From Apostichopus japonicus (Eukaryota > Echinodermata > Holothuroidea > Aspidochirotida > Stichopodidae), in the NCBI RefSeq assembly GCF_037975245.1, contig NC_092563.1:29413960-29477959 (forward strand): 64,000 bases of DNA, given 5' to 3'. The notes below the pieces were generated by a model. The model had not been told where the DNA came from and did no database searches. It worked only from the letters and a program-made list of their open reading frames with translations. Positions 317-47,900 of this stretch are shown piece after piece. A program made the translations under genes and the position numbers. Within the stretch, counting starts at the first letter, position 1. The number at the start of each line of letters is the position of its first letter.

Positions 317-504
317 TTTTTAAGCAAACGTCACCTAAGAAGGAACATGGTCAAGCAAACCAAAGAACCAAACTATACTGATCCACTCTGAACCTCAGTA
401 CCTTTGCATGCATCGAGACTGTGACTGCGTGATCATAGTCAGAGGTGTCTCACAATTCGCTTAGAAAGGGAACAGATACTACACATGATCTTAGCCGAAA
501 GGCT
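317..504 (-). mobile_element. U2-headed SINE-like element, copy 1
   Basis: Read on the minus strand, this copy starts with a diverged U2 snRNA-like head (GGCTAAGATCATGTGTAGTA, then TCTGTTC). The body is shared with the copies near 17.4, 30.1 and 47.3 kb and contains TGATCACGCAGTCACAGTC. The first bases of the U2 head are degraded here, and I found no convincing target duplication. It has no coding capacity. The U2 resemblance is judged from the well-known U2 5' sequence; the SINE status is inferred from the shared body and from the target duplication of the 17.4-kb copy. Confidence 0.7.
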
Positions 505-3800: not shown

Positions 3801-4262
3801 GGGCACTTGGACTAGTAGCATAGGAACTTGAGCAACATTACATACTCTGGTACTAGTACTTAGAGCCAAAATACTCTGGTATACTAGTACTCAGAGCCAG
3901 CGTATTACATAGTCTGGTACTAGTATACTCAGAGCCAGCTTGAGCAACATTACATACTCTGGTACTAGTAGCATAGGAACTAGAACAACATTACATACTC
4001 TGGTACTAGTAGCATAGGAACTTGAGCAACATTACATACTCTGGTACTAGTACTTAGAGCCAAAATACTCTGGTAAACAAGTACTTATAGCCAGCGTATT
4101 ACATAGTCTGGTACTAGTATACTCAGAGCCAGCTTATGCAACATTACATACTCTGGTACTAGTAACATAGGAACTAGAACAACATTACATACTCTGGTAC
4201 TAGTAGCATAGGAACCAGAACAACATTACATACTCTGGTACTAGTGCTCAGAGCCAGCCTTT
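3801..4262. repeat. Higher-order minisatellite with 194-bp period
   Basis: The monomer is roughly 40 bp and built around TACTCTGGTACTAGTA, with alternating tails (GCATAGGAACTAGAACAAC or CTTAGAGCCAAAA). The CTTAGAGCCAAAA variant occurs at 3859 and 4053, exactly 194 bp apart, and the monomers between recur in the same order. This makes a higher-order repeat of a little over two units. It lies just beyond the 3' end of the first SLC35G-like gene. Confidence 0.85.
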
Positions 4263-11499: not shown

Positions 11500-11925
11500 G
11501 TGTTTGATTGGGACGAAATCTTTTGTCTCTAGTAATATTACTGTCATTCGTTTTACTTAATTGCCGACATTCACAACGTATCCATACATCATGGTTCAAA
11601 TAAATAAGTTGTAAGTGCAGTATTTTTATGCCGGCATTTTGTCTAGATACTCGTTTTACTTGAATTCCGACATTCACAGCCAATCTCTACACATCGTTGA
11701 AGGAGCTCAAATAAATAGGTTTAAAAGTGCAGTAATTTTTTTGCCGGCACTTTATCTAGATACTCGTTTTACTTCATTTCCGACATTCACAGCGTATCTC
11801 TACACACCGTTGAAGGGGATTAATGAAATCAGATTAAAAGTGAAGTATTTTTATGCTGGTTCTTTGTCTAGAAACTCTTTACACTTGATTTCCGACATTC
11901 ACAGCGTATATGCATAGCCTATAAC
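11500..11925. repeat. 103-113-bp tandem repeat, four units
   Basis: The motif CCGACATTCACA recurs with its aligned G at 11566, 11669, 11782 and 11894. Each unit also carries a TCTAGATACTCGTTTTACTT-like block (weaker in the first) and a GTGCAGTATTTTTATGCCGG-like block. The array is internal to the foldback element. It is a non-coding minisatellite. Confidence 0.85.
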
Positions 11926-15921: not shown

Positions 15922-18027
15922 TCAAGATGTTGATGGTAACAGGAACCCTATTGTAGACCCTACAACCAGAATGGTTCCAACTATTGATAACAGATCGGAA
16001 ACTTCATCCAGAACAATACGACCTAGAACAAAAGCAACTGGTATGCATAATGTAAATAGAATAGACATACCGATGAAGGGTACTTTATGTAGAGCCCATA
16101 TCATGAAAACAGAACCACCAAGGGAAGCGAATGCTATTCCAGCGACGAAAATGCATTCATTGAGCGGTGGGAGTAGTTCGAAGTTATTTGTTATTGACAT
16201 GTGTAGTAAAGCAGCGATCGTGCCAGAAACACCCAACATTTCAATTAACAGGGCAGTGTCTACCTTTCCTCTGTTGGTTATTATTTTAGTAAACAGGACT
16301 GCTAACACGTAGCAGATTAACGAAGCTATGCCGAAGAGCGCCCCGATAAACTCGCGCTTATAGTCCATAACTTCACCGCAATCAAAAATAAGAGGAGGTT
16401 TTGAAACGAGGACAACTCCTATGAAATTAAATAATATGAGCAAATATTTCATAAATTCTATTGGTTCACCAAAGAATACACGATTCAGAATAGCTCCAGG
16501 GATTGGCTGATTCGCAATAATACAACTGACATTTCCCACATGAGCAAAACCCACTGCTACATAAGCCAATACCACGGCTAAAGCATTTAATGCACCGCAA
16601 AGCAAGTAAATCATCCAATCAGAAACGCTGTAAGAATGAACATCCCCGAAATCGACGAAGAAGATTGACGGTAGGTAAACGATGCTGCGGTACAGTAAAA
16701 TCTGGAAAGGTGTGATAGAGGTGACTAACTTGACGGCTGTCAGCTGGCAACCGAGTAAAATACCAACAAGGGTCCCATAAATAAAGCACCTTTGGTCTAG
16801 TATCATTTGCAGCAGGCGGTATAATTGTTGCCCTGCAGAAGAAGGCTTTACATCTTCACTGACGTCAAATGTTGAGACATCTCTGGAAAAAAATGTACAG
16901 AAAGAGTTAGGAATAGTAATCATGACACCCTCAGAATAGTGGGTGGTTGTGAGTGATGGAGGGGTGGAAGGGTGCAGGGTTGGAGGGGTGGAGGGGTACA
17001 GGGTGGCGGGGTAGAGTGGTGGAGGGGTGCATGGTGGACCTGCAGCACTATATCATCGTCAACTCCAATGTCGCCATAATTGTTTGTTTCAATGCAAACC
17101 GGTAAAAATAACGGCACTTTAATATAAAACGCCTGCTGCAGAGCCACACCAAGACTTCTTTTGGGCTCTCTTCCTTGTTCTTAACTTACATATTTACAAG
17201 ACATTAACGCTTCATTATGGATTCCATGGGATTCAACCTAAAATCGTTGAAGGGAATAACATATCAGGGTTGTAGAACTGATTAAAAAAATAAAAATGTT
17301 GGCCTGCCTCTGCATGAGGCACATTCATACCTATAAACAATTCTTTTTTAAGGAAAAGTCGCCCAAGAAAGAACCTGGGCACGAAAACCAAACTACCGAA
17401 CGACTGATCCGCTTCCAACCCCAGTCCCCTTGCATCGGAACTGTGACTGTGTGATCATTGTCAGGTGTGCATCACCATTCCCCTCTAAAGGGAACAGATA
17501 CTACACATGATCTTAGCAAAAGGCCGAGAAGCCTTATAAACAATTCTTTGACAACTTGCTTCATACAGGAACAGTCCTTCCAATTGATATTATTTCTCGT
17601 GTTCTTTTAATTATAACCTTATATTGTTATAGCCTATAGTTGATCTTAGACTAATGTTAGTTTAGTATACATTCTCACAAAACTGATGGAGCTTATATGA
17701 TTCTGTTACAATATTTCTCATTTTTCTATCCTAGATTAATTTAAAAAATGTTATAAGTCGGACTGTTACACATACCTATGATATATATACAAAACAGAAC
17801 TAGTATTGTTCGATACAGGTGACAAGCGCCTACAGTGGAATTAAGAACTTCCTTACCGGTTTCGAACCTCTGGACATACAATCAGCGTCCATAGCCTAGT
17901 GGTTAGGTTGTCCGCATATACAGCGGGAGGCTCGAGTTCGAATCCCGGGTGGAGGCTGGAAGTTTTTTAACTGTTCTGGATTTTCCAACTCAATGCGATT
18001 TCAATATATATATATATATATATAGAC

Positions 18028-28400: not shown

Positions 28401-31400
28401 AATGTGGAGAACAGATCACGTGGCATATAAAGGAGAACACAAGGATGAAAGTAAGTTTAGAGCATTTAATAAGCTATTTACATGGCAGAACAAAATATGA
28501 ATATGAACATAATAAATGTGTTTAATATGGGGACAGTAATCAAAGCCAAGGAACCATCAGAGGTGTGGCGACAACCTCTTAACGGAACGAACGGAGAATA
28601 CGGAGAGGGCGCTCAATCGGGCATCTGCCGCTTTCATACCGCAGTGTAAAGGAATGTTCTAGTAGGCTATGAATATTCAAGAAGTCTGCGAAACACTTTG
28701 TTGGCGAGTTCCAGTTATGTAGAATGTGTGAGCGCATCTGGGATCGTAACAATTGGAAGACTCGGAGACTTGAATGGTAACTTATGTTACGTAATAGGGT
28801 AAATGAATAAGTGGGTTACATAACACCATTGTAAAGATTAATTTTGCCCTTGGCAAGGAATCAATAGCAGGGAAACAGAGGTCTTGAATCCTTCTCAAAA
28901 TTATGCTCATTTCTACAACCCCGGAGAAAAAAAAACAAAAAAAAACTTACCTTTTATGTACTGCTTGATGAAAGCATGAGAGGCAAAACTGAGGGCGCTG
29001 TTGATGATATCCATCTAAGAAGAGAGGTTTATAAAACGAAAAGAGTCAAAATGGGTTTTTGGGTTTCAGAAGTTGGGAATAGATTTCGAATGGATTCGTA
29101 TTGAGTGTTCGATACCTGTGTATAAATATTTCAAGAATTTCCAGTTCTTCCAAGATAGAACTCCGATTTCTTGAATCAAGATTGCCAGCAAAAGATTCTG
29201 GATATGATTTTCTGTCTTAAAAGTGACACCAGAATTGACATCTAATGTAAAAGCTAATTTTAATTGAGAATATGTCAATGATGATTGGTGTGATACAATT
29301 TTTGGAAAAATGGACATAAAAAAATTGTTTTCCTTCTCTAATGAATATTCATGAAGCCGAGACATACAATGGGATAAAGATCGCACAATTGCAGAGGAAT
29401 GATTTAATATCATCTTTGAGTTTTCTGAAATAGAATAAATAGCATGAGATACAGGAAAGGGAAACAGGAGGAGGAGGGGGCAGGGGGAGTGTCAACTAGC
29501 TCTTAGTAACCTGAGAAATGAATGAATCAGATATTTCTTCATCAGTTTGCATCAAGGTTAACTACATAAGAGAAAAGCAGACTTAATTTATGACAGCGTC
29601 CGTTCCATTGTGTGAGATATTGATCATCCGTTGTAATTAAGAACAATTCAGAAAACTTAATTTAGAAATATTAAAAAAACTTAATAAACAGAGACTTACG
29701 TCAAGGTCTTCAACATCAGCCTCAAGTAACTTAGATTGAGAGCTGAAAGAGAAGCATAGAACCAAAGGATGGCAATTAAATACAAACTTCCCTGAAAGAA
29801 CATGCAGGTCACATATAAGAATTGAACTACATTTGTAGGCAAACAGATCTTTAATATCTCATGGAGACCTGAATTGAGAAATTTCAATGAGGGAATCCCT
29901 ACAGTTTTATTGAAAGAGGTAAAAAAAAAACTTTTTTTTTAAATAAATCAAAATTTGAAAAGACTATTATACCACACTGATACTAAAACTGACTGGTTGG
30001 GCCTATTATTTTATTAAGAAAAGTCAAGACAGAGAGACTGGGCACAAAGAAACCAAACAACTTCATCCACCCTCAACTCAGTAACCTTACATTGAAACTA
30101 CAATAAATGTGATCATGACCATGTAACATCAAGTGAAGTCCCTTTGAAAGAATATACACACTTGCACATGATTCTGATTAAAGGTTGGTCAATCTTCTGC
30201 ATTGTGTACTGTGTATCTGCAAATAACAGAAACTACTCATGATCTAAAGAATCTAGTAACAGGCAGCTGTCTTCTTTCCACTCGTACGACGGCCTCTCAG
30301 AATGAAACAAACAACTGAAGAATCGTCACCCTTTTTGTGTAATTAAATAAATTTAAAATCCATACAGACCTGAAAGAACTGACAGACCAGATGAATCTTG
30401 AATCTTCTAGACCAAGACTTCCGGCTAGCTGAAGTGTCTGAGGTTAAAAAAATGAAAACACAGCCATTTTTTTCGGGTACTATAAATATGCATATATTAC
30501 TATAAATATGCATATATTACTATAAATATGCATATATTACTATAAATATGCATTTATTACTATAAATATGCATTTATTACTATAAATATGCATATATTTT
30601 TCATATTGATACTATTCTCCTGGAATGGATATCACTATCTATTCGTTCAGTATCATCAGTAATTCATAGAATAAACATTCACACTTCTTCTCATTTCCAT
30701 ATCATCATAGTCAACTTATCATCACAGTTAGGCTTAATTGTAAGGATATTTCCCATAGAAAGTGCATTTCCATGAACAAAAACTTGTCATTTAGCCTCTG
30801 AAGAAGATCCTGCTAGGATCGAAATGTCAGGCCAACTTACTTTCACACAACAAAAAGAAGACACTAATTTGCAGTCGGGTATCGTGGTGCTGCTAGATTT
30901 AATATTCATGCATCTTTTCATTTCCATCAGAAAAGTTGGGACAATTTCCTAATGCTAATACCTCTCGTATCTGTACTCCAATATCATGCTCTCAAAGCAC
31001 TGGTATTGACAGTACGAACAGTTCCTAGACTTTATAGAAACATGATATTCATACTGCTCGCACTGACAATACTAGTGCTCTGAGGCAGGACAGTACACAA
31101 CAGCATAGAAATTTCCATCAGCCAGTCGGGTATTGTAGTGCTTCAAAATTGAATATTCATGCTGTTTTCATTTCCATTGACCAGTAGGCATCGTAGTGCC
31201 TCTAGATTGAATATTCATGCATGCATTCATTTCCATCAACCAGTCGGGACAACTTTTCAATGCTTATACTTCTCTTTACTGCTTTAAAGCACTCGGACTG
31301 ACAGTATGAAAAGTTCCTAACCATTTATCTCATAGAAACATGATATTTACACAGCTAGAAGACATCCTGTCAGTAAAAGGGCTTTACAGCATGAGGTGGA

Positions 31401-47095: not shown

Positions 47096-47176
47096 GCCCA
47101 AATCAAGACTTCGAGACTTTGACTGTGTGATCATCGTCAGGTGTGTATCACGATTCCCCCTCGAAAGGGAACATAT
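47096..47176 (-). mobile_element. U2-headed SINE-like element, partial copy
   Basis: The body segment GACTGTGTGATCATCGTCAG, then CCCTCGAAAGGGAACATATA, is followed by the family's 3'-end-like TTTTTAAGAAAAATTCACCC. The U2 5' end is missing. It lies immediately beside the next copy. Confidence 0.65.
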
Positions 47177-47206
47177 ACTTTTTAAGAAAAATTCACCCAA
47201 GTAATA

Positions 47207-47381
47207 CTTTTTTAGAAAAAGTCGCCCAGGAAAAAAACCAAACTACCGAACGACTGATCCGCTCTCAACCCCAGTCCCCTTGCATCAGGACTGTGACTGT
47301 GTGATCATCGTCAGGTGTGCATCACCATTTCCCTCGAAAGGGAACAGATACTACAAATGATCTTAGCCAAAAGGCCGAGAA
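47207..47381 (-). mobile_element. U2-headed SINE-like element, best-preserved head
   Basis: The minus strand begins CTTCTCGGCCTTTTGGCTAA, then GATCATTTGTAGTATCTGTTC: about 41 nt matching the U2 snRNA 5' end with about two changes. The shared body follows and ends GGGCGACTTTTTCTAAAAAAG. AAGTAATA occurs at both borders (47199-47206 and 47380-47387), a possible short target duplication overlapping the edge. It lies upstream of the GPCR array. Confidence 0.8.
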
Positions 47382-47900
47382 GTAATATTCCAATATGGTT
47401 TACTCAAAATGGCCTTTATGTATATTCTCCACGATGTCCAATCTCTTTAAAACAATGCTTAACAACAGCGTGTGACATTGAACGACAATATTCAGTTTCC
47501 TGGCGTGAGAGGTGGGCGGAGAGACACGCGTCATTGACGCATGCGCACAACGGCATTGTAAAGTTGATGAAGTAACTAGATGGCTCAATTATATTTGCTA
47601 TTTTCTCTCTATATCCTGTTTACGGAATCTATTAAAACACTGAAATCCGCTACATGGAGAATCATTTCCAGCACTCAATTTTACGAAAGGTATAATATCT
47701 TAGAAGCGTTCTTCAGACATCGGTTAAGACCAGGGAAGATAAGAAGGTTATATAGCTTGATGGAAGTACATTTTGACAGTGAGCACTCTTAATTCTCAAT
47801 CCTGACCGCTACTCTTATAAACTTGGAAATTTGCAATCCACTGATTATCGTATTCAATAAATTCCTTCTATATATAAACCAACTTACTTTATTCGCCAAT

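Follow-up and report, generated by a model that had tools for sequence, protein, structure and literature searches.

We found that Apostichopus japonicus carries a retroposed family whose copies begin with the 5' part of the U2 snRNA, and that the same element also sits inside the U2 genes, fused to them at the site that Keno-type LINEs interrupt. One of these fusions is letter-identical to young dispersed copies, the 3' flanks of the dispersed copies resemble U2, and no Pol III B box was found in the family consensus or in that fusion. We consider it probable that the element is a parasite resident in U2 genes, which would spread as a fusion RNA that the U2 promoter drives and Keno-type proteins mobilise, with dispersed copies that are mostly dead. 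Three parts of this cycle are inferred from sequence: that Pol II transcribes the element from the U2 promoter, that the enzyme is of Keno type, and that the flow runs from the array to the dispersed copies.

The starting point was a 64-kb stretch of DNA (hereafter, the window), where the first-pass annotation had described five related copies in the same orientation, with a U2-like head of about 41 nt that switches to a shared body. An HMM built from a set of 41 copies (set 1, defined below) was run on the window and on the reversed window. All five copies were recovered (E 5.7e-68 to 1.9e-5), being the only members at E < 1e-4 and all on the minus strand; two more matches had E 1.4 and 5.9, and the reversed window gave 0 matches. 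The features of the family in the window are the following.

317..503, minus strand: older diverged copy, 80% to consensus (HMM E 1.3e-40)
17332..17346, no strand: 15-bp target duplication, low-coordinate side, 3' of the 17.4-kb element (exact word at 17332 and 17535 only)
17345..17533, minus strand: U2-headed element copy with U2-derived head, body, hairpin tail and A-run (HMM E 5.7e-68; 95.8% to consensus)
17535..17549, no strand: 15-bp target duplication, high-coordinate side, 5' of the 17.4-kb element (exact word)
30014..30175, minus strand: very old copy (HMM E 1.9e-5; the reversed window gives 0)
47109..47179, minus strand: partial copy starting at U2 nt 35-36 (GTATATGTTCCC...; HMM E 1.1e-17)
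47179..47203, minus strand: remnant of another copy's tail, which makes up the 5' side of a dimer junction (weak on its own, with HMM E 5.9 and BLAST E 0.012)
47208..47384, minus strand: element copy with a short internal tail deletion (HMM E 2.9e-60; Rfam U2 47.8 bits)

The 17.4-kb copy starts at about U2 nt 3-4, with one G missing, and scored 38.1 against Rfam U2 (E 1.5e-6), below the gathering score of 46, which the 47-kb copy just exceeded (47.8). BLAST alone missed the body of the 30-kb copy at E 1. The piece at 47.1 kb is a partial copy, as first described, and its actual structure is that of a dimer junction: the weak tail fragment (47179-47203), AAAAA and a copy from U2 nt 35-36, with the junction word located by pattern search at C3:29461126 (1 mismatch). 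The window also contains two tandem repeats, at 3811-4256 (194-bp unit, 2.3 copies, 95% matches) and at 11596-11909 (113-bp unit, 2.8 copies, 83%).

At the genome level, a pattern of 32 nt from the body, searched with up to 2 mismatches allowed, gave 1,831 matches, and the reversed pattern gave 0. The matches were 950 on the plus and 881 on the minus strand, so the common orientation noted in the window is a local feature. We worked with three samples of copies. A genome search with the 17.4-kb copy gave 2,498 first-look candidates, 40 of which were scored and yielded 45 matches; set 1, the source of the consensus, comprises 39 scored genome loci outside the window and the 2 best window copies, and is biased toward query-like copies. 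Set 2 holds 60 loci, on C1-C3, out of the first 100 listed of the 1,831 matches, and is biased to the exact body word. Set 3 holds 19 copies chosen for the array-type junction CCCTTAGGG from 100 listed of 159 matches, and is biased by that 31-nt junction word.

The consensus has 192 nt and opens with ATCGCTTCTCGG, which corresponds to U2 +1. Its nt 1-45 are identical to the host U2 gene from +1 (45/45), including nt 30, which is T in both and A in the Rfam consensus. The U2 match stops at nt 45 and a common 147-nt body comes next. Thus, the U2 origin of the head and its switch to a shared body, as first proposed, were borne out on a genome-derived consensus, and the length of the head was revised from about 41 to 45 nt. 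The body had a single chance-level snoRNA match in Rfam (E 2.5), and the element has no evident coding capacity. According to the A. japonicus genome paper (PMC10344927), SINEs represent 0.02% of the genome (159,644 bp). Since 1,831 copies of about 190 nt exceed that amount, the U2-headed family was probably not annotated as a SINE there. Some individual copies had further particularities: an extra G before +1 was noted by eye at L055 and L111, and L067 and L103-L107 have both flanks in common at different loci, which points to one copy inside another repeat family that was multiplied along with it.

The copies share a 5' end and carry target duplications. From 120 loci we kept 98 single copies with a 3' end, dropping multi-piece or 3'-less loci, and 39 of them were flanked by an exact target duplication 9 nt long or longer, against a mean of 0.45 (maximum 3 in 20 trials) when flanks were re-paired. 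The median length was 12 nt, with a range of 9-20 that begins at the cut-off of 9. Together with the exact 15-bp duplication around the 17.4-kb copy, a word that occurs in the window just twice, at 17332 and at 17535, this agrees with the retroposition claimed by the first-pass annotation.

The 3' flank of the dispersed copies tracks U2 nt 36-41 (GTATCT), with falling strength. Sets 1 and 2 supplied 93 copies with 88 unique flanks, in which the six positions that follow the A-run read G in 74, T in 71, A in 68, T in 59, C in 32, and T in 43. The G lay outside the duplication in 31 of the 36 copies having both an exact duplication and that G; L035 is one of the 31, and a one-mismatch duplication would take in its G. 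Because it is mostly outside the duplication, the G, often GT and in L082 and L153 GTAT, seems to derive from the element RNA. The sequence ACTTTTT-CTT-AAAAAGT forms a perfect hairpin by sequence and by fold, which the GT after the A-run completes; hence the GT could be the intrinsic end of the element and need not be U2-derived.

The U2 genes of A. japonicus form a tandem array with a 645-bp unit on C16, near 31.0-31.17 Mb, plus single genes on C15. Uninterrupted exact U2 sites numbered 60 (4 on C15 and 56 on C16). Using a pattern of U2 nt 36 onward without U2 nt 34 before it, we retrieved 21 interrupted sites, a count that excludes insertions with an altered U2 downstream sequence or a different 3' junction. 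All 21 were read, all lay in the C16 array, and each continued with U2 nt 36 onward. In 15 of them, LINE tails of the form ACTTGAAAGAAA(A) preceded GTATCTG, and in the other six it was the tail of the U2-headed element, GACTTTTTCTTAAAAA. The element is therefore found at the LINE's own site in the targeted gene. The 3' flank at these fusions begins at U2 nt 36, or at nt 39 if the terminal GTA is counted to the element.

The six fusions differ at their 5' side, and the U2 overlap ranges from about 5 to 18 nt, compared with 9-20 nt for the dispersed duplications. L128 and L129b consist of U2 1-45, the full body, A5 and U2 36 onward, with U2 nt 36-45 present on both sides of the insertion, and L121b has the same arrangement with one change at nt 43. 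In L129a, U2 1-52/53 is joined to a 5'-truncated element copy. L118 is a dimer, formed by U2 1-40, a truncated copy, A5, GTATCTGTTC and a full copy, and L117 is an element inside a U2 remnant behind a LINE. The promoter of L128 is identical to that of an intact U2 unit over 200/200 nt; for L121b, L129a, L129b, and L118, 130 promoter nt were the same as in the intact unit, as compared by eye.

The LINEs of the array encode APE endonuclease, RT and CCHC domains (PF03372, PF00078, PF00098). Of 20 endonuclease matches in the array, 11 had frames of 1,141-1,173 aa and no stops in the match. We name these LINEs putatively Keno-type by their site and domains. At least three LINE families, with differing 3' tails, were seen in one U2 array (C16:30.96-31.17 Mb); their endonuclease identity is about 46-68%, and several have long open frames. 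At L004 (C16 near 31,014.7 kb, minus strand), a LINE is joined to U2 after nt 31, and U2 nt 29-31 (ATG) is a possible start codon of the first frame of the LINE (ATG GCA CGC CAT), an ATG that owes itself to the T at nt 30 of the host U2.

The last 75 nt of the element showed no similarity to seven LINE tails (shuffle p 0.11 to 0.97), namely three from Keno-type LINEs and four from Tx1-like LINEs, two of the latter being versions of one numerous LINE. As the tail of the element resembles none of the seven, we assign the enzyme by its site only. A search with the exact tail core and changed upstream letters gave 26 matches, and the six examined were all the U2-headed element. We also considered the element as an internal-deletion derivative of an array LINE and rejected this origin: its body and the array LINE region read have nothing beyond 10-13-nt words in common, and the tails are dissimilar. 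The numerous Tx1-like LINE, near-identical among its copies and ending in AAAAAGCAC, is concentrated on C17 (15-25 Mb), C11 (13-14.5 Mb), and C16 (26-31 Mb); among the matches listed, young U2-headed copies are also frequent in those regions. Low recombination or a target in common could explain this overlap.

Young dispersed copies are very close to one of the fusions. In set 3, 14 of the 19 copies showed 100% identity with L128 along 160-188 nt of the head and body, and for the remaining five the value was 98.8-99.5%; GTA follows the A-run in all 19. Of 101 copies from sets 1 and 2, 13 were nearer to L128 than to the consensus. The L129b subtype (CCCCTCGGG) was found at three dispersed loci among 100 matches listed. 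The junctions of L129a and L118 matched only themselves in a genome-wide search at up to 2 mismatches, so no daughters of either fusion are visible. None of the six array fusions belongs to the commoner consensus type (CCTTTCGAGGGG) or to the CTTCGGG type; the sources of these two types may have been lost, or may lie in the other haplotype or somewhere else. Identity between L128 and the dispersed copies gives no direction by itself, and on sequence grounds the array copies could be recent landings.

Dimers and repeated units were found both in and out of the array. The dimer junction AAAAAGTATCTGTTCCC occurs at 12 loci genome-wide at up to 1 mismatch, including L118 in the array and one in the window. 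L077 is a dispersed dimer with the same junction as L118, and it has a single duplication around the whole, so that its two units moved as one RNA; the other dimers examined, L148 and L108, had no clear flanking duplication. In L093, nine units follow one another head to tail, truncated at the 5' end to different extents and flanked alike by GTATCCTAT, a pattern expected if insertion had recurred at a single U2-like site; one pair of truncations recurs there, which looks like a local duplication. In two copies of set 1, L021 and L034, a second partial U2 head precedes the copy; template jumping or nested insertion would give such a structure.

U2 genes have no internal promoter, and therefore it is not obvious how a U2-headed retroposon is transcribed. 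The search for a Pol III B box allowed up to 3 mismatches, a setting at which about half of shuffled sequences contain one, and it detected none in the consensus or in L128. One A-box-like word, with 1 mismatch, is located in the U2 head, and T-runs of 4-5 occur inside the element. Across the 120 loci, 28 head starts had +1 to +14 intact, and none of them had a U2-promoter-like sequence upstream. The first-pass annotation had seen in this family a SINE with a U2-derived head. Its head and its dispersal support that name, which is apt in the wide sense only, since no Pol III B box was found.

We propose a cycle that begins with insertion at the Keno site of a U2 gene. This would create a fusion gene with the U2 promoter, U2 1-45, the body, A5, and U2 36 onward, whose RNA would start at U2 +1 and continue past the A-run into letters of the U2 target (GTAT...). 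The fusion RNA would then be copied through target-primed reverse transcription by a Keno-type LINE protein. Landing in another U2 gene would renew the promoter, and landing elsewhere would leave a dispersed copy with head, body and target duplication; having no promoter, such copies would be mostly dead. On balance, we also lean towards a stronger version, in which residence in Pol II snRNA genes is obligate for the element, and the U2 promoter and nt 1-45 are acquired anew with every on-target insertion. The head would then be a relic of the target site and not an inherited promoter, the dispersed copies would be by-products, and the same route may explain snRNA-headed SINEs generally, including the recurrent heads of the crocodilian SINEU.

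The main rival is a classic snRNA-headed SINE, whose head was gained once by a template switch from body RNA to U2 RNA, with dispersed sources and with array copies that are landings. The extra partial heads of L021 and L034 are what template jumps would give, the commonest subtype is without an array copy, and PMC3414825 describes R2 jumping to U12 and tRNA. However, no promoter was found in the element or carried by its dispersed copies, and the array copies have one. Moreover, the head end at nt 45 and the 3' flank from nt 36 fit a single U2 insertion with a 10-nt overlap, which is within the range of the dispersed duplications, and we consider the classic SINE unlikely. A residence in U2 genes with movement by another LINE, either a relaxed A-tail machine or an unseen family, is possible, if doubtful. 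It would account for the tail of the element being unlike the array LINE tails and for most copies lying at sites without long U2 matches, and the numerous Tx1-like LINE also ends in AAAAAG; nevertheless, the six insertions lie precisely at the LINE site in U2, and on-target insertions together with U2-like flanks at dispersed sites call for an endonuclease with a preference for U2.

It seems very improbable to us that the U2 fusions arose as artefacts when the tandem array was assembled or collapsed. Arrays of 645-bp units are hard to assemble and the fusions are known from the assembly, but six fusions with different 5' junctions end at the same U2 nucleotide, and 15 LINE insertions lie at the same site. 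As for ordinary U2 retropseudogenes, Rfam does call one window copy U2. The consensus refutes this reading, to which we give practically no credence: the U2 match stops at nt 45, a common 147-nt body follows, and the body pattern has 1,831 matches against 0 for its reverse.

The relevance of the proposed U2-gene residence lies in the fact that candidate source genes are visible: fusions in the U2 array that lie behind an unchanged promoter, including one with exactly the same sequence as young dispersed copies. Insertion into a small-RNA gene is a route by which a SINE-like element could gain both a head and a promoter. If true, what SIDEs are to rRNA genes this element would be to genes transcribed by Pol II, and U2-chimeric RNAs may be among the transcripts of the host. 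A literature search, with most subscription papers outside it, found no report of a SINE that combines an snRNA head with residence in an snRNA gene.

The closest SINEs by description are the crocodilian SINEU, which reportedly have U1 or U2 heads. They are said to be moved by a Tx1-Mar LINE into a mariner family, with heads added recurrently. As in SINEU, the head of the A. japonicus element comes from the 5' part of an snRNA (here, 45/45 of U2 from +1), and there are many dispersed copies with a common 5' end and target duplications (here, 39/98). The A. japonicus element differs in being also inside U2 genes and in a head that fits a target-site relic, with SINEU taken by description only. 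Compared by description alone, the two likely have independent origins. SINEU is named as a class in PMC5753468.

Keno and Utopia are autonomous LINEs that target U2 (PMC4640811, as for what follows on them). For Utopia, the first downstream letter is U2 nt 39, and its 3' flank is said to equal that of Keno. Crocodilian Utopia was found outside U2 at U2-like words, and Keno is listed for frogs, fish, lancelet and hydra, with echinoderms not listed there. The U2-headed element uses the same U2 region, in an array interrupted by Keno-type APE LINEs, and its dispersed copies lie at U2-like sites, as those of crocodilian Utopia in that source. In contrast, it is non-coding as far as evident and its tail is unlike theirs; the downstream letter in the A. 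japonicus array is U2 nt 36 versus the nt 39 given for Utopia, and they are equal if GTA is counted to the element.

Finally, the SIDEs of R2 and R1 in Drosophila, as described in PMC3414825, are short non-autonomous elements in the multicopy rRNA gene targeted by those LINEs. They derive from R2 or R1 by internal deletion, carry a ribozyme, lie in 28S genes, and rely on cotranscription with the gene. The U2-headed element also resides in a LINE-targeted multicopy gene, and it may be cotranscribed with it; the promoter of L128 is identical to that of an intact unit. Unlike SIDEs, it does not resemble the array LINE beyond 10-13-nt words, it sits in Pol II snRNA genes, and it has over a thousand dispersed copies; the ribozyme is a SIDE feature, for which the element was checked against Rfam alone. 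In summary, the element has the head and the dispersal of an snRNA-headed SINE, falls outside the strict Pol III definition of a SINE, and works like a SIDE without descent from the array LINE.
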